Positions 4,424 to 39,975 of a stretch of 50,342 nt of DNA are shown piece after piece. The stretch's first letter is position 1. Every line of letters begins with the position of its first letter. The DNA comes from Candidatus Iainarchaeum sp. (GTDB lineage Archaea > Iainarchaeota > Iainarchaeia > Iainarchaeales > DTGL01): the NCBI GenBank assembly GCA_026396995.1, contig JAPLVS010000044.1, forward strand, positions 1 through 50,342, in the 5' to 3' direction. Below the pieces are notes generated by a model. The model was not told the origin of the DNA. It saw only the letters and a program-made list of their open reading frames with translations, and did not search any database. Position numbers and translations under genes: made by a program.

Positions 4424-4432
4424 GTATAAAAG
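4424..4432 (+). promoter_or_regulatory. TATA box of HExxH paralog 1
   Basis: GTATAAAAG lies just after the dph2 stop, centred 27 nt before the ATG at 4455. It argues for a leaderless mRNA and for ATG 4455 as the start rather than the in-frame start at 4437. Confidence 0.6.
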
Positions 4433-4454
4433 GCGTTTGAAGATAGAGATTTTT

Positions 4455-5393
4455 ATGGCAGTGTTCGGGAAAAGGAAAGCCAAGAAGCCTTTGGAAAAAA
4501 GGAAAGGAGGAGTCAAGCCCCGCCCTCCGGCAAGGCAAAGGAAGCGCAGGCCTGTTTGGGGCGATGAGGCCAGTGTTGCCAAAAGGATTTCGGAAATTTA
4601 CGACATTTCCTTGGAAGAACTGAACCCGGATTTAGTTCTTTCAAAAAAAAAGATAAATTGGTTGGGCACTACTGCCGGCAGTTTTAGTCCGCGAACAGGA
4701 GCCATTACAACAGTTCCAGGCTCACCTGCCGCTTTATCTCACGAAAAGCTGCATAGGGACCAAGAACTATTGACCAGGCAGAGCGTTGAGCAAAGAAGGC
4801 AAATTTGGTTGGCTCAAGAGGCTATCTTGCGCGGTGAGGAAAGAAAGACCCGACGTAGGGCCACGTTAAAGAACAGATTGGAACAGAGCAGGGAAAGCAG
4901 ATTCAATGAATACCTGCCAACTTTCGACAAGGCCCCAGAGTCAAAATTGTGGGCCATTGGGCCTTATCGGCTGTTGTTCCGTTTCGCCCCCACAACAATT
5001 CTTCTTCTTGAAATCGCAAGCCTGGCAAATCCAGGGGCCCGCAAGGCATACTCCGGTTATTTTGCCGCAGTTATAGCCGCAAAGGCAGCCAGCTTAGTGT
5101 ATATCCAAGCAGGCCTCAACCACTGCTTCAAAAAGCACGGCGCCGATGCATTCATCCTGCTCTCGGTGAAACCACCGAAAAAACACAGAGTTGAAAGGAT
5201 TTGGTTCTGGGAAAGGCAAATGATAAGGCAGGGCTATCTTTCAAAGGAAGGCGGCCTTACAAGGAAAGGAGTGGAGTTGGTCAGGGAATTGCAGCCAAGA
5301 GAAGTCATCCTTGAAAGAGTCAACCGCTGGAAAGCAGTGCAAGAGGTAATGCTGGAAAGGGAGAAAGCACAGAAGGAAAAAGCGCTGGAATAA
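4455..5393 (+). CDS. Putative membrane zinc-peptidase-like protein, HExxH paralog 1
   Basis: First of three tandem paralogs; I know no named family for them. Seen in order (312 residues): a basic N-terminal 35 residues; a conserved helix (RISEIYDIS); an HEKLH motif at about residues 96-100 followed by RDQELL; a charged linker; two hydrophobic helices at about 172-195 and 200-219; then the shared tail block KHGADAF, PP-K-, W-ERQM, and GYLSKEGGLTRKG at about 264-276, which resembles the wing and last helix of a winged-helix domain. HExxH is the zinc-binding signature of many metallopeptidases, with Glu as catalytic base. Peptidase activity is inference. It has its own TATA box, so it is probably expressed separately from dph2. 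See also the paralogs at 5437 and 6402. Confidence 0.75.
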   Translation: MAVFGKRKAKKPLEKRKGGVKPRPPARQRKRRPVWGDEASVAKRISEIYDISLEELNPDLVLSKKKINWLGTTAGSFSPRTGAITTVPGSPAALSHEKLHRDQELLTRQSVEQRRQIWLAQEAILRGEERKTRRRATLKNRLEQSRESRFNEYLPTFDKAPESKLWAIGPYRLLFRFAPTTILLLEIASLANPGARKAYSGYFAAVIAAKAASLVYIQAGLNHCFKKHGADAFILLSVKPPKKHRVERIWFWERQMIRQGYLSKEGGLTRKGVELVRELQPREVILERVNRWKAVQEVMLEREKAQKEKALE

Positions 5394-5404
5394 TGCCCTG
5401 GAAG

Positions 5405-5413
5405 CCTTTTTAA
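5405..5413 (+). promoter_or_regulatory. TATA box of HExxH paralog 2
   Basis: CTTTTTAAG, centred 27 nt before the ATG at 5437, lies in the 43-nt gap after paralog 1. Each paralog therefore appears to have its own promoter. Confidence 0.5.
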
Positions 5414-5436
5414 GGAAAAAAAGTCGTATCTTATTT

Positions 5437-6336
5437 ATGCCGAATAAAGTGCTGGAAAGGCGCAGGCTGCCTGCAAAAAGGCAAAAATGGCGTCGCCCTA
5501 ATCTGCAACCGCGCGAGCCGATTTCTTTGGATGCAATGCCACCTGTGCCAAGGGCAATGGTGAAGCGCATTTCCCAGATTTGGGGAATTCCGGTAAGGGA
5601 AATGGAAACAGTGTATGCCGGCAAGACCCAAACACGGTTTGCCAGAGGCATGTGTAACCGAATTAGCTTCGAAATCAGGAGCTCTACCAAGCAGGCTGTT
5701 TTAGGGCACGAATTGGTTCATTCGAACCAAGATCTGCTTGCCCCCTTAAATTATGCTGAAAGGCAGGCCCTTAAGGGGGAGGCTGAAGAAGCCAAGATGC
5801 CGAATGCTGAAAAAGCGCCGACCCAAAAAGGCAAACAAAAAAACGCATTTTATGAACATGCTGGAAAAAAAGACGGGATTGATGAACTGACTGCCAGAGC
5901 CCCCCATAAAAGGCAATGGCTGGATGGCGGAGGTTTTAGAAAAAACACGGCTATCGGTTTCATAGCTTCCACTTTGCCGGTTGTAGTCGGGCTCGAACTG
6001 CTTCTATTACGTAACCCTGCCTGGCCTTATTTGCTAATGGGAAGCGGGGGCGTGATAGGAGCAACAAGATTTAGTCGACTCTATACCGCTTATAGGGCAG
6101 GGGGCTATTTCAGGAGGCATGGCGTCGACGGGCTAATCCTTATTTTTGTTAATCCTCCGAAGGACTTTAAGGCAAGCAAAATGTTCAAATGGGAGCGCGA
6201 AATGGTTGCAAAAGGCTATCTGCTCAAAAAAGGCGGAATGACAAGAAAAGGAATGCAGCTGGCGCGCTCGCTCCAGCCAAGGGAAATGATTTTCAAAAGG
6301 GCAAAACAGGCAAGGAAGTGCAAATCGCAAAAATGA
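5437..6336 (+). CDS. Putative membrane zinc-peptidase-like protein, HExxH paralog 2
   Basis: 299 residues with the same architecture as its neighbours. It has a basic N-terminus, the conserved RISQIWGIPVREME helix, HELVH at residues 91-95 followed by SNQDLL, and NYAER at 105-109 whose Glu is a candidate third zinc ligand. A long Lys/Glu/Ala linker at 110-165 is followed by two hydrophobic helices at about 172-191 and 195-210. The shared tail comes last (RRHGVDG, NPPKDF, KWEREMV, GYLLKKGGMTRKG). Motifs around HExxH and in the tail are better conserved among the three than the linker and membrane helices, which is the pattern expected if the zinc site and tail are functional. The start at 5437 fits the TATA box. 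Confidence 0.75.
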   Translation: MPNKVLERRRLPAKRQKWRRPNLQPREPISLDAMPPVPRAMVKRISQIWGIPVREMETVYAGKTQTRFARGMCNRISFEIRSSTKQAVLGHELVHSNQDLLAPLNYAERQALKGEAEEAKMPNAEKAPTQKGKQKNAFYEHAGKKDGIDELTARAPHKRQWLDGGGFRKNTAIGFIASTLPVVVGLELLLLRNPAWPYLLMGSGGVIGATRFSRLYTAYRAGGYFRRHGVDGLILIFVNPPKDFKASKMFKWEREMVAKGYLLKKGGMTRKGMQLARSLQPREMIFKRAKQARKCKSQK

Positions 6337-6368
6337 AGGACGGAAGAATCTGACATAAAGAAAGCAAT

Positions 6369-6378
6369 GCATAAAAAA
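6369..6378 (+). promoter_or_regulatory. TATA box of HExxH paralog 3
   Basis: GCATAAAAAA is centred 27 nt before the ATG at 6402, the same spacing as for paralogs 1 and 2. Confidence 0.55.
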
Positions 6379-6401
6379 AACCTTGAAAGGAAAAGATTGT
6401 C

Positions 6402-7292
6402 ATGGCTGCGATTGGCAGAAAGAGACAAAGGGCAATTCCAAAAAACAGGGAGAAATGGCGTCCTGTCCGTCTTAAGGCCGGAAGGCCGTTGCCGATGCAC
6501 AGGATGCCTCAGTTTTCAAGGAATGTTTTCAAAAGGATGTCAGAGATTTACGGCATCCCAATGGCTGAAATGGCGCCGCTTTATTTGGGGTGGTTTCCCA
6601 GCCTGAGATACGGCGGCATTAACTATAGGAATAGTGGAAGTATTTTTGGGCAGCCTGGCAGGGAGCTACTGGAGCACGAATTGGGCCATTCGGCTTCCGA
6701 TCTGTTGGAGCGGGAAAACTATGCGGAAAAAACCGCCACGCGCAAAAAGCAGGCCAAACTGATTGGCACATTAAGAGATAAAACTGATTCAAAAAAAACT
6801 GCAATTGGAATTGCTATGGATTTCGGGGAGCCAATCGCTGAAAACAATAAAAATGCCCTGAGAAAGCATCGTTTTGGTGAAAAAATCGCAGTAGCATCTA
6901 GCGAAGCTGGTGTCCCATATTGGCAGCAGGCAATGCTTGGAATGATGTGGGCAATGAGTTCAGTCATGTTGAGAAGTCCGGCTCTTCGCAGCTATATCCC
7001 CAGTTTAGCGCTATCAAGAACTCTCAGACGGCACGGCGAAGATGGCTTTATTTTGCTTGTAGCAAACCCGCCTAAAAATTACAGCACTAGGAACCTGCTG
7101 GGCTGGGAATATAAAATGGTAAAGAGAGGCTACCTTGAAAGGAAAGGCGGCCTTACAAAGAAAGGCATACAGCTTGTAAGGGAATTGTCGCCAAGAGAAG
7201 TAATACTTGACAGGTTGAAGCGGCAAAAGGAAGTCCAAGCAGCAATAGTTGAAAGGATGAAAGCCGAGCGCACTAGAAAAGCAGCCAAATGA
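6402..7292 (+). CDS. Putative membrane zinc-peptidase-like protein, HExxH paralog 3
   Basis: 296 residues, third tandem copy. It has a basic N-terminus, the RMSEIYGIPMAEM helix, HELGH at residues 92-96 followed by SASDLL, and NYAEK at 106-110 (candidate third zinc-ligand Glu). A charged linker leads to hydrophobic segments near 174-190 and 196-206, shorter than in the other copies, and then the tail block RRHGEDGF, NPPKNY, GWEYKMV, GYLERKGGLTKKG. HELGH is the most peptidase-like of the three motifs. It converges on pyrH with only 9 nt between the stop codons. Alternative reading: a non-proteolytic zinc-binding membrane protein, or a distant ImmA/IrrE-like or M48-like peptidase. I cannot choose between these. 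Confidence 0.75.
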   Translation: MAAIGRKRQRAIPKNREKWRPVRLKAGRPLPMHRMPQFSRNVFKRMSEIYGIPMAEMAPLYLGWFPSLRYGGINYRNSGSIFGQPGRELLEHELGHSASDLLERENYAEKTATRKKQAKLIGTLRDKTDSKKTAIGIAMDFGEPIAENNKNALRKHRFGEKIAVASSEAGVPYWQQAMLGMMWAMSSVMLRSPALRSYIPSLALSRTLRRHGEDGFILLVANPPKNYSTRNLLGWEYKMVKRGYLERKGGLTKKGIQLVRELSPREVILDRLKRQKEVQAAIVERMKAERTRKAAK

Positions 7293-13947: not shown

Positions 13948-16890
13948 TTACCCGAAGGCCGCATCGAGCTGGTCGATGAATTCCTTGGCAGCGTCTGCTG
14001 TGTCGCCTGCAGTGAATCCTGCAACAGCCCAGTCGCCGTCCTCGGTTACCGCGACAACAGTCTCGCCTGCAGCTGTCAGCTTTTCCGCTAAGGTCAAGCC
14101 GTCAGCGAATGTTGCATTTGCAGCGAGTTTGTTGACGAGGTGCCCGCCGACTATTACCACGCCGGTGTTTGGCGCGGAGTCGTCCGTGTAGACAATCTGT
14201 GAGCCTATTTTCTTGAGGTCCTTGACTGTCTTCACGTTTGGCGAGACTGCAACATCTGTTGCCAGGACGTTTCCGCCTGCAGCGCAGGTGCACGCTTCGC
14301 AAGCTATGTTTTCAATCACGTAGCTTGTGGTGTCCACCAACTGTTCGACTCCCGACTGGAGTGAGGGGTAGTCGCAGCCTGTCGCGCAGAACGAGGTTCC
14401 GCCTGTCGTGGTTGTCTCGGCGCCGAAGCCCTTTACAACCATGTCCAGCTTTTCCTGGTTCTGTGGCATGCTTGCTTCGAAGTAGCCAGCGGTTGTGCTG
14501 AACTTGCTTCCGAAGTCGGTGTATGCTGCTGCCGTGTAGCTGTCCGGTGTGTCCGGGTGCAATACCCAGGTCTCTGTGGTGTCATTGTAGTTGACGTCGT
14601 TGCCGTACCATGACAGGTTGGAGTTCGGATATGACGGGAACTTGTCTTCGGCTGTGTCGATGTACACTCTTGTGTCCCATGTCCCTGTTGTGCTGTTGTC
14701 CTTCACTCCGAATGTCGCGACATAGTAGTTGTTCACAACGCCGCCGCCGAGATCAAGTTCGTTTGGCAGGTAGTAGGTTGCGTTGACTACGCCGTCTTCG
14801 CCTGTGTCTGTTCCGTACAGCTGTATGTCCTTTGAGTACTGGAGGTCGAAGTTGGTTGTTGCGTCAAGCAACAGCCAGAGGTCGCCGTAGGTTGTGTTCT
14901 CCATGAACGCATACTTGAAGACCTTGCTGTTCGTGCCTGAGCCTGTCAAAGGTATTGTTGCCCTTCCTGCTGCTGTGACCCCGTTGTTGGCATCGTCGAC
15001 GTACCAGTACGTGCTGTTGGTTGTGTCTGCAGTGCTGTAGCCGATGTATACGTCGTCGCCTGCCGAGGACAACTGCTCTGTTGCAACCCTGAAGTATCCG
15101 TCCGCTATGCAGTTGAAGTCCCAAGCCGGGCCTGCATTGTAGGTTGTGCACGTGTAGTTAATTCCGTTCAAGTCAACGTTCTTTGTCTGCAGCGTTGCTG
15201 TCGGCGTCCATTTACCCTCATCAGTTATCAGGTTTCCGTCCACTCCCATTACGGCTATTCCGTTCAACAGGTCTGTTGTCGCGTCAATCTGGAAGTTTGT
15301 GTCAGTTTCCACTGTCTTGTAGTAAAAGGTTTGTTTGTCGATGACGAAACTTCCCTGTGTCGCGTTGTTGCTCTGCTGGAGATAGAATGGGACCTTGTGC
15401 GCGGTGTCGCCGCTGTCCGTGTATTCCACGTACGCGCCGTTCCCGATTTTCACAACTGTCCTGTCCTCGTCTCCTTTCCAGCCGTTGAAGACCACTGACG
15501 CGTAGCCGTAACCTGGCGTGGTTGTGGCTTCGCCTTCAAGGAACAATGCTTCGTTCGCTGCGGTCTTGCCCGCATCTGTCAAAGCCCATATGCTCCCTGC
15601 ATACAACGCCGTTCCGTCGCTTGCCTTCCAAAGCTTAGGGCTTTGGTTGGAGATTGTTATGTCGGTTATGACGTTCGCGTCCGGGCTTGAGTCGCTTGTG
15701 CCTACCTTTAAAGTCGCAATCCAGCGGTCGTTGCTTGTGTCTGTGTCCGTAGCGCTGTAGGGGTATTGTGCCGCATTCTGGATTGTTACGAGGTCTGCCC
15801 CTGTCGCAATTATGACTTTTCCGCTTCCGGTGGCTGCGTTGAAAGTGACTGCTTTCAGGTAGAGCGATGTTTCCAGTGCGTAGGCGCCGGTATCGTCTGT
15901 AAAGCTCTGTTCGAGGTAGATGCCTTCTTGTGAAGTGCTTATGCTGTCAACCTCGTTTCCTTCGTCGTCCAACAGGGTGAATTCAGCCTCTGTTGTGCTC
16001 GAGATATCTTCCACCTTTACGGACATTGTTTTGCCTGCGTATTTGCCTGCACCAGCGAGGCCTTCGATTGTCTCGGTAAGGGCGTAGGTCTTTTCTCCGC
16101 TTGCCTTGACAATTTTTATCTTGTCTGCGGATGTTACTGTGCCTCCGCTCCTTGTGGTGTCAACGTCGTACAGCTTGTATTCGACGCCGAACAGTACTGC
16201 AATGACGTTGTCTGTGTCATCAGCCACAAAGTCGGTGTTATCTGTTGCATCGTTGTCGAGTGGCAGTCCCTTGGAGTAGTGCACCCTGTAGTTGAAGTCG
16301 CCTGCAGAGTCCAACTGCAATATCAGGTCGTCGATTTTCGGGTGGGTGTAGTCCATCCTTGCGTCGGCCTGTATGCCGATGTATTCTGTTATTGTCTGGT
16401 TGTAGCTGTTTGATTTGTAGCGCCAGTTCTTGGTCTCTTTGTAGAGTGTTCCAAGCTGTGACTGGCTTAGTTCGGCAAGGAATTCTGCCGCTGTCCCTGA
16501 CAGTGAGTCAAGGTTTGTTGTGTCGTAAGGCTTGCTTTTCTCTGAGGAATAGGTCTGGGTTCCGCCGACTGTCAGGTCAACGCTAACGCCTTTGCAGGCT
16601 TCGCTTGTGCCTGTTCCTGTCGGGCCCTTTCCTTCCTTCCAGCCAGATACTATGCAGGAAACCTCTGTGTCATCTGTCGCTAACTGTGCCAGTTTTGCTG
16701 CAATGTTGCCTGCCCACAGATAGTCTGAGGTTGCTGCATTCTTTCCGACGACAACGTCAAAAGGAGTACTGTCCCCTTTTAGCACTTGGTCTTTCGTCAG
16801 TGCCGCTGCCGCCATTGGGGCCAACGCCATGCCAATCAAGGCTGCGCCTGCTCCGATTGCCGCCAGTTTCTTGACGTCCAATCTCTTCAT
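13948..16890 (-). CDS. S-layer protein
   Basis: Main surface-lattice protein, secreted through Sec. 980 residues from the ATG at 16890. A signal peptide covers about residues 1-30 (KRLDVKKLAAIGAGAALIG then AAAA), followed by an N-terminal domain starting ALTKDQVLKGDSTPFDVVVG as in methanogen-type S-layer proteins. A long Thr/Asp/Asn/Gly-rich beta region follows. The C-terminal domain (VKTVKDLKKIGSQIVYTDD, GVVIVGGHLVNKLA, VAVTEDGDWAVAGFTAGDT) is the conserved S-layer C-terminal fold. Cysteines cluster near residues 860-895 (CATGC, CEACTC), suggesting disulphides. There is no C-terminal membrane helix or sorting signal. The upstream in-frame GTG at 16902 is rejected because GAGGTG is better placed as SD for the ATG. 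Strong promoter, leader hairpin and terminator fit very high expression. Confidence 0.9.
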   Translation of the reverse strand: MKRLDVKKLAAIGAGAALIGMALAPMAAAALTKDQVLKGDSTPFDVVVGKNAATSDYLWAGNIAAKLAQLATDDTEVSCIVSGWKEGKGPTGTGTSEACKGVSVDLTVGGTQTYSSEKSKPYDTTNLDSLSGTAAEFLAELSQSQLGTLYKETKNWRYKSNSYNQTITEYIGIQADARMDYTHPKIDDLILQLDSAGDFNYRVHYSKGLPLDNDATDNTDFVADDTDNVIAVLFGVEYKLYDVDTTRSGGTVTSADKIKIVKASGEKTYALTETIEGLAGAGKYAGKTMSVKVEDISSTTEAEFTLLDDEGNEVDSISTSQEGIYLEQSFTDDTGAYALETSLYLKAVTFNAATGSGKVIIATGADLVTIQNAAQYPYSATDTDTSNDRWIATLKVGTSDSSPDANVITDITISNQSPKLWKASDGTALYAGSIWALTDAGKTAANEALFLEGEATTTPGYGYASVVFNGWKGDEDRTVVKIGNGAYVEYTDSGDTAHKVPFYLQQSNNATQGSFVIDKQTFYYKTVETDTNFQIDATTDLLNGIAVMGVDGNLITDEGKWTPTATLQTKNVDLNGINYTCTTYNAGPAWDFNCIADGYFRVATEQLSSAGDDVYIGYSTADTTNSTYWYVDDANNGVTAAGRATIPLTGSGTNSKVFKYAFMENTTYGDLWLLLDATTNFDLQYSKDIQLYGTDTGEDGVVNATYYLPNELDLGGGVVNNYYVATFGVKDNSTTGTWDTRVYIDTAEDKFPSYPNSNLSWYGNDVNYNDTTETWVLHPDTPDSYTAAAYTDFGSKFSTTAGYFEASMPQNQEKLDMVVKGFGAETTTTGGTSFCATGCDYPSLQSGVEQLVDTTSYVIENIACEACTCAAGGNVLATDVAVSPNVKTVKDLKKIGSQIVYTDDSAPNTGVVIVGGHLVNKLAANATFADGLTLAEKLTAAGETVVAVTEDGDWAVAGFTAGDTADAAKEFIDQLDAAFG

Positions 16891-16920
16891 GTTTTGTTTC
16901 ACCTCTTATTTTAACACTAA

Positions 16921-27625: not shown

Positions 27626-28555
27626 TCAGCTGAGGGACGGGCTGCCCCTCGGCGTCGGCAGAGACCTATAGAATGGAAGGCGCTTGACATTCGGATTGCG
27701 CCTTAAAAGACTAGGGTCTGTCACAAAGATTTTGCATGGCTCTCCTTCAGGCTCCAGGCCGTGCATTATCCTTTCAAGCTGTGTCCTGAACCAGTGGCAG
27801 CCTTGAATGGCGCCCCCAGTAAGGGAAATGCCTATCGGGATTCCGTCCGGCGTCCTGACAAGCCACATTTTATCCCAGCCTGCGTATTCGCGCGGGCTTG
27901 GCTTCGGGATATGCACAAGCTGGACTCCTTCGACTACGCCTTCACCCATTTGCCTGCGCAGTTCAGGGCCTATTCCCGCCCTGGTGAGCGAAGCATCCGC
28001 AGTTTCCGGATATGTTTGCCTTAAACCCCTGATAACATCGCCGCCAATCTCGCCCTTCAAAAGGAAAGGTTTTTTTGCATGCGGGAAAAACTCAGGCGAA
28101 AAATCCACTACAACTTTGATTTCGACAGCATCCTTGAAGCCGCCGGCCGCCTCACCGGGAGTAACGCGCCTTGTCCACTTATATTTGCCAGGCCCGCTCG
28201 GCTCCTTGTTTGGCATCGGCGCAAACAAAGTCATTAATGTGCGGTACCGGAATTTACCGCTTGGCAATTCAATTACCTTGTTTTCCTGAGGGATAAGTTC
28301 CGGAGCCAATGGAATGATTTTTCCGCTTCTATGTTTTCCGGGCACACCCAGTCTCCTTGAGTAATCCCCATAAAACGTATCTCCTTTTTCATGCCGCTTG
28401 GATTTAGTGCCTTGTTCAGTGTAAAACCGCCCAACGGTTTTTTTCTCCCGGCGTGTCATGTTCCTTGGATCTCTGACGCCGAGTCCTGCCCTGATCCGCC
28501 TGCCGCCTGTGCGCTGGCGCCCCGGGGGCGTTAGTGGTTGATTTCGTTTCGGCAT
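27626..28555 (-). CDS. Hypothetical basic protein
   Basis: 309 residues, not recognised. The first 60 residues are Arg/Lys/Pro/Gly-rich and probably disordered. The middle (about 130-290) looks folded, with alternating strands and helices (EIKVVVDFSPEFF, MWLVRTPDGIPIGISLTGGA, CHWFRTQLERIMHGL). The tail is again Arg/Pro/Ser-rich. A CTTAAATAAAT box about 30 nt upstream supports the ATG at 28555. It is transcribed toward priL, but priL has its own promoter. Several unrelated-looking basic hypotheticals of this style occur in the window (34849, 37313, 45648). Confidence 0.6.
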   Translation of the reverse strand: MPKRNQPLTPPGRQRTGGRRIRAGLGVRDPRNMTRREKKTVGRFYTEQGTKSKRHEKGDTFYGDYSRRLGVPGKHRSGKIIPLAPELIPQENKVIELPSGKFRYRTLMTLFAPMPNKEPSGPGKYKWTRRVTPGEAAGGFKDAVEIKVVVDFSPEFFPHAKKPFLLKGEIGGDVIRGLRQTYPETADASLTRAGIGPELRRQMGEGVVEGVQLVHIPKPSPREYAGWDKMWLVRTPDGIPIGISLTGGAIQGCHWFRTQLERIMHGLEPEGEPCKIFVTDPSLLRRNPNVKRLPFYRSLPTPRGSPSLS

Positions 28556-37312: not shown

Positions 37313-38347
37313 TCACGAAAGTTTTTTGGCCATGAACACTGTCGAAATCGGTTCTCTGACAGGCCTGCTTGTGGGGGTTTTGAAAACCCAGGCTTGTGGC
37401 AGGCCGGAATGTTCAATCTTCGAACCTAGGTCTTGAAGTTTATAACCGTCCTTTGCAAGCAGTTTTTCCAGTTCTCCATACCTGGCTATTATGTGTTCTT
37501 TTGTTTTCGCCTTCCTTGGGTCGGTTACATTCGCAACATGATAGGAACCGGTTTCCCTGACGCCGACCACATCATACTGTCTTGCCTGGTGCTGTGAGCA
37601 GACTGCAATCATCGAGGCGCCTGCCCTTCGCCCGATTTCTTCCAGGTATTTCATTGTTTCAACAGGCCATTCACGGTATTGCTTTAAAAAATGCCTGGAC
37701 AAGTTCAAGGCCCTCGGCTGCCAGTTCCAGACAACCAAAACCGGCCTGCCGTCTGTGCCCTGGTGGAACTTGCAGGAAACATATCCGACAGCGCCCTCAA
37801 GATACTGGTGGAGATCGTGCTCATAATTCCTTTCAAGGCCTTTCACTATTTCTGGGTTCGCTTTCCTGTCGAAAACCGGTTTGACCATGGCTTGCATAAC
37901 CGGCCCAAGGCCTGAAAACCCTGCAAGGCTACGTTCACCCTGTGTCCTGAACTCAACCCTGGCCATAGATTTCGAGAAAACCGCAAAATGCCTTGTCGGC
38001 ATAACTCCGAAGGCAGCCACATTCAAATCGAAGTCGGCCGGAACCTCATTTCTGCGAACCCACCAGTCCAGCAAATATTCAAGCTGCCTGCCTGCATTTT
38101 TCCCCGGCATGCCATCCGGCATCTTCGGGCTTTCACCAAAAGCAAGTTTTGCAGCGCGCCTTGCAACATACCACATCTTTCTCGGCTCAACCGGCCTGCC
38201 GCCTGTCACAACACGGACAGCATTCCTGAACCGCTGCTTGCCATGGCCTGAAGTCGCCAATGTTCTCTGCTCCAGGGAAAGGTGCGACAAGGCATCCGAA
38301 ATCAAAACAGGCCTTGGCTTAGGCCTTTTCGGGACAGGCGCAGGCAT
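37313..38347 (-). CDS. Hypothetical protein, larger paralog of the gene at 38352
   Basis: 344 residues, not recognised. A basic Pro-rich start is followed by a helical part, then EGAVGYVSCKFHQGTDGRPVL and VVWNWQPRALN (about residues 190-220), which match the shorter neighbour's GGSIGYAVFKIHRPSKGKPL and IVSNFQMRAL. The later half (LEEIGRRAGASMIAVCSQHQ, IIARYGELEKLLAKDGYKL) has a helix-strand pattern faintly like an acetyltransferase, but no motif is decisive. Its ATG overlaps the stop of the repaired upstream frame (TAATG), so the two paralogs form one operon. Confidence 0.6.
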   Translation of the reverse strand: MPAPVPKRPKPRPVLISDALSHLSLEQRTLATSGHGKQRFRNAVRVVTGGRPVEPRKMWYVARRAAKLAFGESPKMPDGMPGKNAGRQLEYLLDWWVRRNEVPADFDLNVAAFGVMPTRHFAVFSKSMARVEFRTQGERSLAGFSGLGPVMQAMVKPVFDRKANPEIVKGLERNYEHDLHQYLEGAVGYVSCKFHQGTDGRPVLVVWNWQPRALNLSRHFLKQYREWPVETMKYLEEIGRRAGASMIAVCSQHQARQYDVVGVRETGSYHVANVTDPRKAKTKEHIIARYGELEKLLAKDGYKLQDLGSKIEHSGLPQAWVFKTPTSRPVREPISTVFMAKKLS

Positions 38348-38348
38348 T

Positions 38349-39055
38349 ATTTCAGCTCCTTGACAAGGAACGGCACTTTTGAGGTCGGCATCATCTTGAA
38401 CCCGACTGTTTCATCAATGGTTAAGGATTGCGGTGAAAAGCCTGGCAGGGGTGCCAGGCAAAGCCCGCATCTGGAAATTTGACACAATCAGCAAAGGCTT
38501 TCCTTTGGAAGGCCTGTGAATCTTGAACACAGCATAACCGATTGAACCGCCAAGCAACTTGGTTGTATCCCGGAAGCCGTCAACATAAGAAAGGGTGCGG
38601 CCTATTTCTCCGCTTTGCCTTTTCTGTAAAATAGGCTTTACCGAAACAAAGGTGTACGGGCCTGCACCGAACTTGAAGCCGCCGCTACTGTCAGACTCGA
38701 AAGAAGTAAGCGCAATCCTTTGCCCTGAAGGCAGAACAACCCTGCGCACGCTTTCAAGCAAAGACGGCTTGCCCCACGCCAATGCCGCCTTTCTTTTCCC
38801 TGCATTCGGCGACCTTGCAGGCTGTTTGCCGAGCGCAATATCCGCAGCAACATTGCCCATCCTTTCCAGGCGCCTTTCGCTCCACCTTTCCCCTGAATCC
38901 AATCTTTCCCTTGAAACCCTTTTCAGAACAGAATTGAGCCTTTGCATTGCGGGCTGGTTTGCGGCCAAGGCAGCCCTGCGCTCAGGGGAAAGCCTTGCAA
39001 GAATCGTGTCAGTCCTCGCTGCAACCAGGGAAGCGTTAGGCTTGGGCTTAGGCAT
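38349..39055 (-). pseudogene. Smaller paralog of the 37313 gene, interrupted by a 13-nt hairpin insertion
   Basis: The open frame from 39055 runs to NFQMRALPG and then ends early (stop near 38414). Removing 13 nt (ACCCCTGCCAGGC, minus strand) restores LPGFSPQSLTIDETVGF and KMMPTSKVPFLVKELK, ending in TAA that overlaps the next gene's ATG. The restored C-terminus has the same position and character as the paralog's end. The extra 13 nt create a perfect 7-bp stem with a 4-nt loop (38441-38458). Promoter CTTTAATCT about 25 nt before the ATG. Function unknown. The frame might be a true pseudogene or be bridged during translation. Confidence 0.6.
38441..38458. repeat. 7-bp hairpin at the frame break
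   Basis: CCTGGCA-GGGG-TGCCAGG, a perfect stem with a GGGG (minus strand CCCC) tetraloop, lies exactly where the reading frame of the 38349-39055 gene is interrupted. Identical GGC codons flank the skipped segment. Confidence 0.7.
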
Positions 39056-39102: not shown

Positions 39103-39975
39103 TCACGGGAACGCACATTTCGCTTTTGTCATCGGGCTTGACAGGAAGCACGGCAAATCGTCCAGCAGGATCAGTTTCATGTAACCAATCCAAGGAATCA
39201 TCAGGATTGTTTTGCCCTGTAGCTTGCCGAAGGGGACAGCGCCGTATGAGAGCCCGGCATCCTGGTCGATAAATGCGTTGAGCACTGAATCGCCTTTTGT
39301 GAGCACGAAAAAGCCGTCCTTTGCGCGGATTTTCGCGACAGCGCGGTGGATTATGGGAATGCCCTGCGCCTCCGAAAAGTAAACCACCACATCACCTTTT
39401 TCTGTGATGTCAATTTCTTTGTTGAGTTTCGGGAAAACGATTTTCTCAGCCAAAATGTCCTTTGCAGAAGCCTGCAACGCCCCGGACTGGATTTTTTTTA
39501 TTACTGACCTGCAGGGCTCAAGGCCTTCAACGCCTTTCACAGAGCACAAGGTGTAAGCGTATTCGGAAATGTCCAGGCCATCGATTTCCGTGTTCGGCAT
39601 TTCAATAAGCGGTGCATTCAATTCCTCAAGGTTCCATCCAGAGAGCGCCATCACATCGCCGCGGTAAAAGGTCGGCTCCATCGAACCGCTCACCACAATC
39701 ACCATCGGCGAAGGGCTGTGGAAAAGAAAGCCAAACAAAGTGTAAAGGAGAAGTGCAGAAACGAACGCGGTGATTAAGTACACCATCCAGCTTACAACCT
39801 GGCTGTCCTTTTTGCCGATTTTTTCCAAAAGCATGTCGGCATAAGTGAAAGGGTCAAGCCATTTCAGGGAAGCAAGCCTTTTTTTGAGCCTTTTCCAGGC
39901 GGAGTTTTCCTTTTTTTCGGCTTTCTCCCTTTCCCTGGCTTCCTGTTCCAATCTCAGTCTTTTCTTTTCCTTCAT
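39103..39975 (-). CDS. Signal peptidase I, archaeal Sec11 type
   Basis: 290 residues. A charged cytoplasmic N-terminus (about 1-60, Lys/Glu-rich) precedes one membrane helix at 63-85 and the catalytic domain: Ser98 in VVSGSMEPTFYRGD, His210 in PIIHRAVAKI (His instead of bacterial Lys, as in archaeal/eukaryotic enzymes) and Asp229 in LTKGDSVLNAFIDQD. It removes signal peptides of exported proteins such as the S-layer protein. A C-terminal hydrophobic stretch (GKTILMIPWIGYMKLILL) may be a second helix. GGTG lies exactly 5 nt before the ATG. Last gene of the csl4-rpoL-DUF99 cluster. Confidence 0.9.
   Translation of the reverse strand: MKEKKRLRLEQEAREREKAEKKENSAWKRLKKRLASLKWLDPFTYADMLLEKIGKKDSQVVSWMVYLITAFVSALLLYTLFGFLFHSPSPMVIVVSGSMEPTFYRGDVMALSGWNLEELNAPLIEMPNTEIDGLDISEYAYTLCSVKGVEGLEPCRSVIKKIQSGALQASAKDILAEKIVFPKLNKEIDITEKGDVVVYFSEAQGIPIIHRAVAKIRAKDGFFVLTKGDSVLNAFIDQDAGLSYGAVPFGKLQGKTILMIPWIGYMKLILLDDLPCFLSSPMTKAKCAFP

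Follow-up and report, generated by a model that had tools for sequence, protein, structure and literature searches.

The stretch of DNA analysed here, referred to as the window, comprises 50,342 nucleotides of Candidatus Iainarchaeum sp. (contig JAPLVS010000044.1 of assembly GCA_026396995.1) and is contig C26 of a 1.35 Mb assembly in 81 contigs, genome G000. It carries three adjacent open reading frames (ORFs) in the same direction, at 4437/4455–5393, 5437–6336, and 6402–7292, flanked by dph2-like and UMP-kinase-like genes (names assigned by eye from the translations). Their products are paralogs that can be aligned along their length, with copies 2 and 1 sharing 37% and 35% identity, respectively, with copy 3. 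Copy 1 (4455–5393, forward strand, as are all features of the triplet given below) contains HEKLH at 4740–4754, a linker Glu in NEYLP, two hydrophobic segments, and a conserved tail; copy 2 (5437–6336) contains HELVH at 5707–5721, the linker motif DELTA, hydrophobic helices, and the tail; and copy 3 (6402–7292) contains HELGH at 6675–6689, the linker motif GEPIA, a segment of weak hydrophobicity, and the tail. An E/D-L-L step follows the metal motif in all three. This arrangement of tandem paralogs, whose charged linker drifts while the tail is conserved, had been described in a first-pass annotation of the window, and all of its motifs are present. The annotation knew of no named family with this order, and no Pfam or NCBIfam model matches the family members. 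The window copies may represent a single clade, as monophyly was not rejected (p-AU 0.37), nor was it demonstrated.

Each of the three genes is preceded by a TATA-like box: TATAAAAG at 4425–4432, TTTTTAAG at 5407–5414, and ATAAAAAA at 6371–6378, which lie at −30 from ATG 4455, −30 from ATG 5437, and −31 from ATG 6402, respectively. The octamers each score within the top 1.5–3.6% of random positions, and strong upstream boxes at −29 to −31 occur in 10 of 15 cases in the window, with the triplet's three counted among the 15. This spacing plausibly fits leaderless transcription from one promoter per gene, in line with the earlier suggestion of separate promoters; the argument is one from consensus. 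Owing to the position of its TATA-like box, copy 1 most likely starts at ATG 4455 and not at TTG 4437, where the ORF opens.

The HExxH site and its variants

A single HExxH motif easily arises by chance, with 151,223 occurrences found in TrEMBL against 80,000 expected (PMC3650047). That explanation does not apply here, because the residues around the motif can be aligned even between distant relatives. Among 19 family members, 14 retain HExxH (the three window copies, two copies in G073, and those of G022, G026, G035, G001, G046, G055, G031, G315, and G306), four have EExxH (the fourth paralog of the window's genome, on contig C5, two copies in G004, and one in G005), and one, in G427, has lost the motif. 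The Glu and the second His are invariant in a 15-member alignment of low overall identity. Loss of the motif from most homologs, which the first-pass annotation had named as grounds for abandoning a metal site, is thus not seen, and its proposal that a zinc site and a tail are under selection agrees with the constraint on both the putative site and the tail.

The third metal ligand is likely the Glu of a downstream E-x-x-A/D motif that resembles the E-G-S-A-D of ordinary gluzincins, the zincins of clan MA(E). The glutamate of NYAE, suggested previously for this role, is a poorer candidate and was set aside; it is not conserved, as NYAE occurs only in copies 2 and 3 and has no counterpart in copy 1 or the relatives. 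In the window, the candidate codons are 5884–5886 in copy 2 (D-E-L-T-A, assigned by eye against the relatives), 6828–6830 in copy 3 (G-E-P-I-A), and 4908–4910 in copy 1, which is the least certain, being placed by eye in NEYLP, a word that has no A. The best common gapless motif in the linker, with words such as GEPIA, EPSA, EPTA, and EPLA, scores 126.5 at width 6 and 157.5 at width 8, compared with maxima of 123.2 and 142.3 in 40 shuffled sets; the width-6 solution misses the proposed Glu in copies 1 and 2, G022, G026, and G055, for which the assignment was made by eye. The G315 member, from a second phylum, reads HELQH...YEPTADVF and resembles the YSEGSADLF of an ordinary gluzincin. In addition, the family profile matches two tail-less proteins, G271 (HEMFHHMQ...YSEGSADLF) and G383 (HEFFHHIQ...YTEGGA), at E ~1.5e-4 per genome when 245 genomes were searched. 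Both are ordinary-looking gluzincins with the usual E-G-x-A third-ligand word; the HMMER alignment leaves these words and those of the family unaligned, and their equivalence is our own assignment.

The four EExxH proteins form one group, separated from the window copies with support of 99/96. They keep all the other motifs, and their otherwise drifting linker holds an invariant E-x-x-A-x-x-H (EPSAxxH or EATARVH), so the group looks selected and not decaying. The change has precedent: a survey of zincins found Glu in place of the first His at about twice the rate seen in an average protein, and some of the substituted zincins are thought to be inactive (PMC3650047). It is possible that the His of EPSAxxH serves as a replacement ligand. 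A rewired zincin site, in which the first His has become Glu and the new invariant His, six residues past the third-ligand Glu, creates a different metal site or chemistry, with HExxH and EExxH paralogs coexisting in one cell, is an idea that we rate as rather unlikely. In the divergent G427 protein, the motif position reads NNILI, and the first helix, hydrophobic region, and tail are kept.

These variants bear on whether the proteins are enzymes. The family could use a zincin fold as a non-catalytic scaffold or sensor that binds metal or protein and signals through its tail without proteolysis, in which case the EExxH and motif-less members would be as functional as the others. The retained motifs and invariant His of the EExxH group, the parts kept by the G427 protein, and the recurrence of the same substitution among other zincins all fit such a role. 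However, the complete HExxH, with its catalytic Glu, is retained by 14 of the 19 members although the protein otherwise drifts fast, and a pure scaffold would have little reason to preserve that Glu; we view this alternative as unlikely. For the HExxH members we lean towards peptidase activity. The earlier description of the family as metallopeptidases needs qualifying, since the EExxH group and the motif-less relative mean that some members may be non-peptidases, and with several relatives carrying altered or lost sites, activity is still a prediction.

Predicted fold of the metal domain and comparison with known zincins

AlphaFold2 models were made for copy 2 (predicted local distance difference test (pLDDT) 68.7, predicted template-modelling score (pTM) 0.62) and for a relative without hydrophobic helices (pLDDT 66.2, pTM 0.65). 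Both consist of a helix, a short helix, three strands, the HExxH helix, weakly modelled linker helices, and the tail. A minimal zincin with a three-stranded sheet has been described (PMC3890501). Because pLDDT is below 50 over much of the linker with the presumed third Glu, the three ligands cannot be placed in the models. A Foldseek search with copy 2 returned, among its top seven matches, selecase, SPRTN (twice), an M32 peptidase, and an M1 peptidase; the 38 matches to the relative without hydrophobic helices include abylysin, jannalysin, selecase, LTA4 hydrolase, M1 peptidases, and collagenase G, and a viral structure library gave SprT-like proteins and a zincin fusion. Sequence and fold matches in the PDB are all at E > 0.1. 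The metal-helix profile alone finds four PDB sequences (E 0.13–0.94), three of which are zincins aligned at HExxH. The botulinum light chain, also present among the PDB sequence matches (E 0.24 and 1), was discounted as a generic, non-significant match around HExxH.

From the models and the motif matches, which also back the third ligand, we consider a zincin fold very probable for this domain. The motif might instead be an inherited structural feature of some other fold, such as a helical membrane-associated protein, and it is true that no significant zincin match is found in Pfam, NCBIfam, or PDB sequences, nor any significant fold match. Nevertheless, such a fold would leave the invariant Glu and second His of the 15 aligned low-identity members to be accounted for, along with the gluzincin-like order of a strand followed by the HExxH helix, HxxQ, and a later E-x-x-A/D, and the richness in zincins of fold lists from two libraries. 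We regard a non-zincin fold as quite improbable.

The known family that recurs most clearly in the Foldseek lists, with matches that are not significant, is M95, the minigluzincins (abylysin, jannalysin, and selecase). These archaeal proteins resemble the models of the family, in that a small sheet precedes the HExxH helix within a compact zincin core. They differ in being soluble proteins of ~105 residues that have no tail, hairpin, or basic head, and they show no sequence match to the family, whose full-length members exceed a single domain of ~100 residues and bear a tail. The M78 proteins (ImmA/IrrE) are gluzincins, many of which are joined to a domain of DNA-binding type. Profile–profile comparison aligns their HExxH and preceding strand with those of the family in the right register; the M78 model PF06114 matches no family member and nothing in the own genome, and M78 proteins are present separately within the Diapherotrites.

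SprT/SPRTN and WLM/Wss1 have a minigluzincin-like core, as predicted for the family, SPRTN is among the fold matches, and the activity of these proteins is DNA-linked. The SprT model PF10263 matches neither a family member nor any protein of the own genome, and we know of no tail of this type, or hairpin, in these proteins. M48 (HtpX/Ste24) and M56 (BlaR1/MecR1) are gluzincins with membrane helices and a third-ligand motif of the E-x-x-A-D type. Compared with these, the hydrophobic part of the family is dispensable and placed after the presumed third ligand, and neither the M48 and M56 models nor the other Pfam peptidase models match family members. The own genome encodes an HtpX-like M48 protein (L001 on contig C64, VIAHEMSHIGNYD...REYLADASA) that is weakly touched by the M56 model and shows no relation to the triplet in any search. 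Elsewhere in the phylum, small proteins of 130–166 residues (L123, L124, L125, L129, and L130) contain HELTHYFQ or HEL[LM]H[IV]PH and score below the cut-off of the SprT model; perhaps these are further uncatalogued small zincins.

Conserved tail and optional hydrophobic segment

The tail, of ~75 residues, is the best conserved part of the protein, with a mean column identity of 44% compared with 35% for the metal segment. Its profile matches lie at 5103–5330 in copy 1, 6085–6309 in copy 2, where it is also modelled, and 7008–7223 in copy 3, and its characteristic words are [KR][KR]HG-D[AG], [NK]PPK, and WE--M[VI]--GYL---GG[LM]T-KG. AlphaFold2 builds it as two helices, a very short hairpin, and two further helices, with pLDDT mostly 76–94. 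The word GYL---GGLT-KG and the modelled order resemble the end of a winged helix. The winged-helix-like character assigned to the tail by the first-pass annotation is a resemblance at the level of model and pattern; no Pfam winged-helix family matches, and the possible fold matches, a MarR protein and the retron Ec86 effector (Foldseek, relative without hydrophobic helices), are at E > 1. On balance, we tip slightly towards a winged helix. DNA binding by the family is more tentative and, in our estimation, somewhat doubtful. Reuse of the tail in other proteins was also considered and gave only marginal matches (E > 0.002).

The two hydrophobic helices reported for all three proteins are clear in copies 1 and 2 but doubtful in copy 3, where the Kyte–Doolittle peak is 1.09. 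A hydrophobic helix is missing altogether from several members that otherwise show the full plan (G073 on contig C96, G004 on contig C4, G055, and, judged by eye, G315). The membrane part is thus optional, and the idea that a membrane location defines the family had to be given up. If the hydrophobic pair forms a hairpin, it would leave both domains on the same side of the membrane, probably the inner side.

Distribution and proposed role

By profile search, members occur in 11 of 87 Diapherotrites genomes, in seven families belonging to a single order; of the 25 more complete genomes of the phylum, 5 carry the family. As its presence is patchy and several nearly complete genomes are without it, the family is accessory. 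Relatives from a scan of named genomes are archaea, one being Candidatus Diapherotrites. A search of 156 genomes from one other archaeal phylum, run with no positive control, gave no member. In a further archaeal phylum, the family is present in 3 of the 301 genomes. Among these, G315 has a full-length copy (E 3.8e-48, or 2.8e-77 once the profile includes it), the G427 copy is divergent, and the G306 copy is split by a frameshift. In the latter (L132, 1139–1812), the metal helix is in one frame and the hydrophobic region and KYGADG tail start are in the other, reflecting either a pseudogene or an assembly error. Full-length members span 231–318 residues, the conserved tail included; a 154-residue member in G001 (L061, 6915–7379) ends after the metal domain and has no tail. 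This gene lies ~6 kb from a homolog of a ppsA-like gene that is also found near the window triplet. A survey of related genomes for tandem copies, as had been suggested, found no array elsewhere, and the copies in G004 and G073 are dispersed.

A conserved operon was rejected, as the neighbours vary between genomes and are mostly housekeeping genes. There is weak recurrence of nrdD-nrdG-like genes 1–3 kb upstream of a member in G005 and G073, which are of different families (L049, 1361–4200; L052, 40–1675), and of a methyltransferase gene downstream of a member in G005 and on contig C1 of G004. A viral origin was likewise discarded, since two scans of viral contigs and a search of PHROGs gave no convincing relative (the sole PHROG line is at E 0.14), as was a role in anti-phage defence, for which PADLOC returned no match. 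Bacteroides matches in the genome scan (L054 and L055) look by eye like the C-terminus of a TatD-like protein and were dismissed as a chance likeness of one helix.

Basic proline-rich heads recur on unrelated proteins in the window, in G046, and on contig C5 of the own genome. In the window, they are found on a 309-residue protein (27626–28555, reverse strand, MPKRNQPLTPPGRQRTGGRR...) and on two adjacent orphan proteins that are alike in places (37313–38347 and 38414–39055, both reverse strand, with heads MPAPVPKRPKPRP... and MPKPKPN...), the last two perhaps forming another tandem pair of orphans with this type of head. By eye, the 984-residue product of 13948–16902 (reverse strand) has a signal-peptide-like start and the look of an archaeal surface-layer protein, and that of 39103–39975 (reverse strand, VSGSMEPTFYRGDV) is signal-peptidase-I-like, its membrane helix preceded by a long charged region.

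The best reading of the triplet and its relatives is that of a new, lineage-restricted family that is probably cytoplasmic. Its members would be built from a basic proline-rich head, a zincin domain, an optional hydrophobic hairpin, and a short winged-helix-like tail, with the predicted zincin domain comprising a helix R-[IL]-S-x-[IL]-x-G-[IV]-P, a small strand sheet, the HExxH helix, a variable linker, and the third Glu in E-x-x-A/D. The HExxH members would most likely be cytoplasmic zinc peptidases, with the two-helix hairpin keeping both domains at the inner face of the membrane. The head and tail may tether the enzyme to nucleic acid or to a regulator, where it would act as a protease in regulation or quality control on a small number of nearby substrates, and the EExxH and motif-less relatives may be altered or dead paralogs that retain the binding role. 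To the statement in its entirety, that these are minigluzincin-like (pseudo)peptidases with a nucleic-acid-binding-like tail, we would give an even chance.

A special case of this reading is a DNA-linked quality-control protease like SPRTN or Wss1, which the head and tail would hold on DNA and which would remove proteins stuck there. The SPRTN structures in the copy 2 fold list, the SprT-like viral proteins in the other list, the description of WLM and SprT domains as minigluzincin-like (PMC4559962), and the basic head and basic, winged-helix-like tail are all compatible with this role. Yet the SprT model does not match the family, a patchy presence in 11 of 87 genomes is unlike a core repair role, and the hydrophobic hairpins of many members are unlike a chromatin enzyme; we regard this version as quite improbable.

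Several observations weigh against the broader reading of minigluzincin-like (pseudo)peptidases as well. The first His or the entire motif is gone in 5 of the 19 members, the models are of medium confidence (pLDDT 66–69) with a poorly resolved third-Glu linker, and none of the fold matches reaches E 0.001. Because AlphaFold2 may be inclined to build a zincin fold around any HExxH, we take the fold lists as moderate support. The profile–profile probability for M78 is ~10% despite alignment of the right residues, the case for DNA binding is built on a weak fold likeness and basic charge, and no conserved gene neighbour points to a substrate.

What is novel here is the family and its architecture, uncatalogued in the libraries searched; the type of system is a variation on known proteins that combine a zincin with a binding domain. 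It adds an unannotated family to poorly known archaea, with an order of zincin, optional hairpin, and winged-helix-like tail that we could match to no named family. If active, these proteins would provide small-genome lineages with an additional compact regulatory or quality-control protease. With HExxH, EExxH plus a gained His, and no motif at all represented within one family, they also offer a natural experiment on the alteration or retirement of a zinc site in a protein that otherwise remains under selection.

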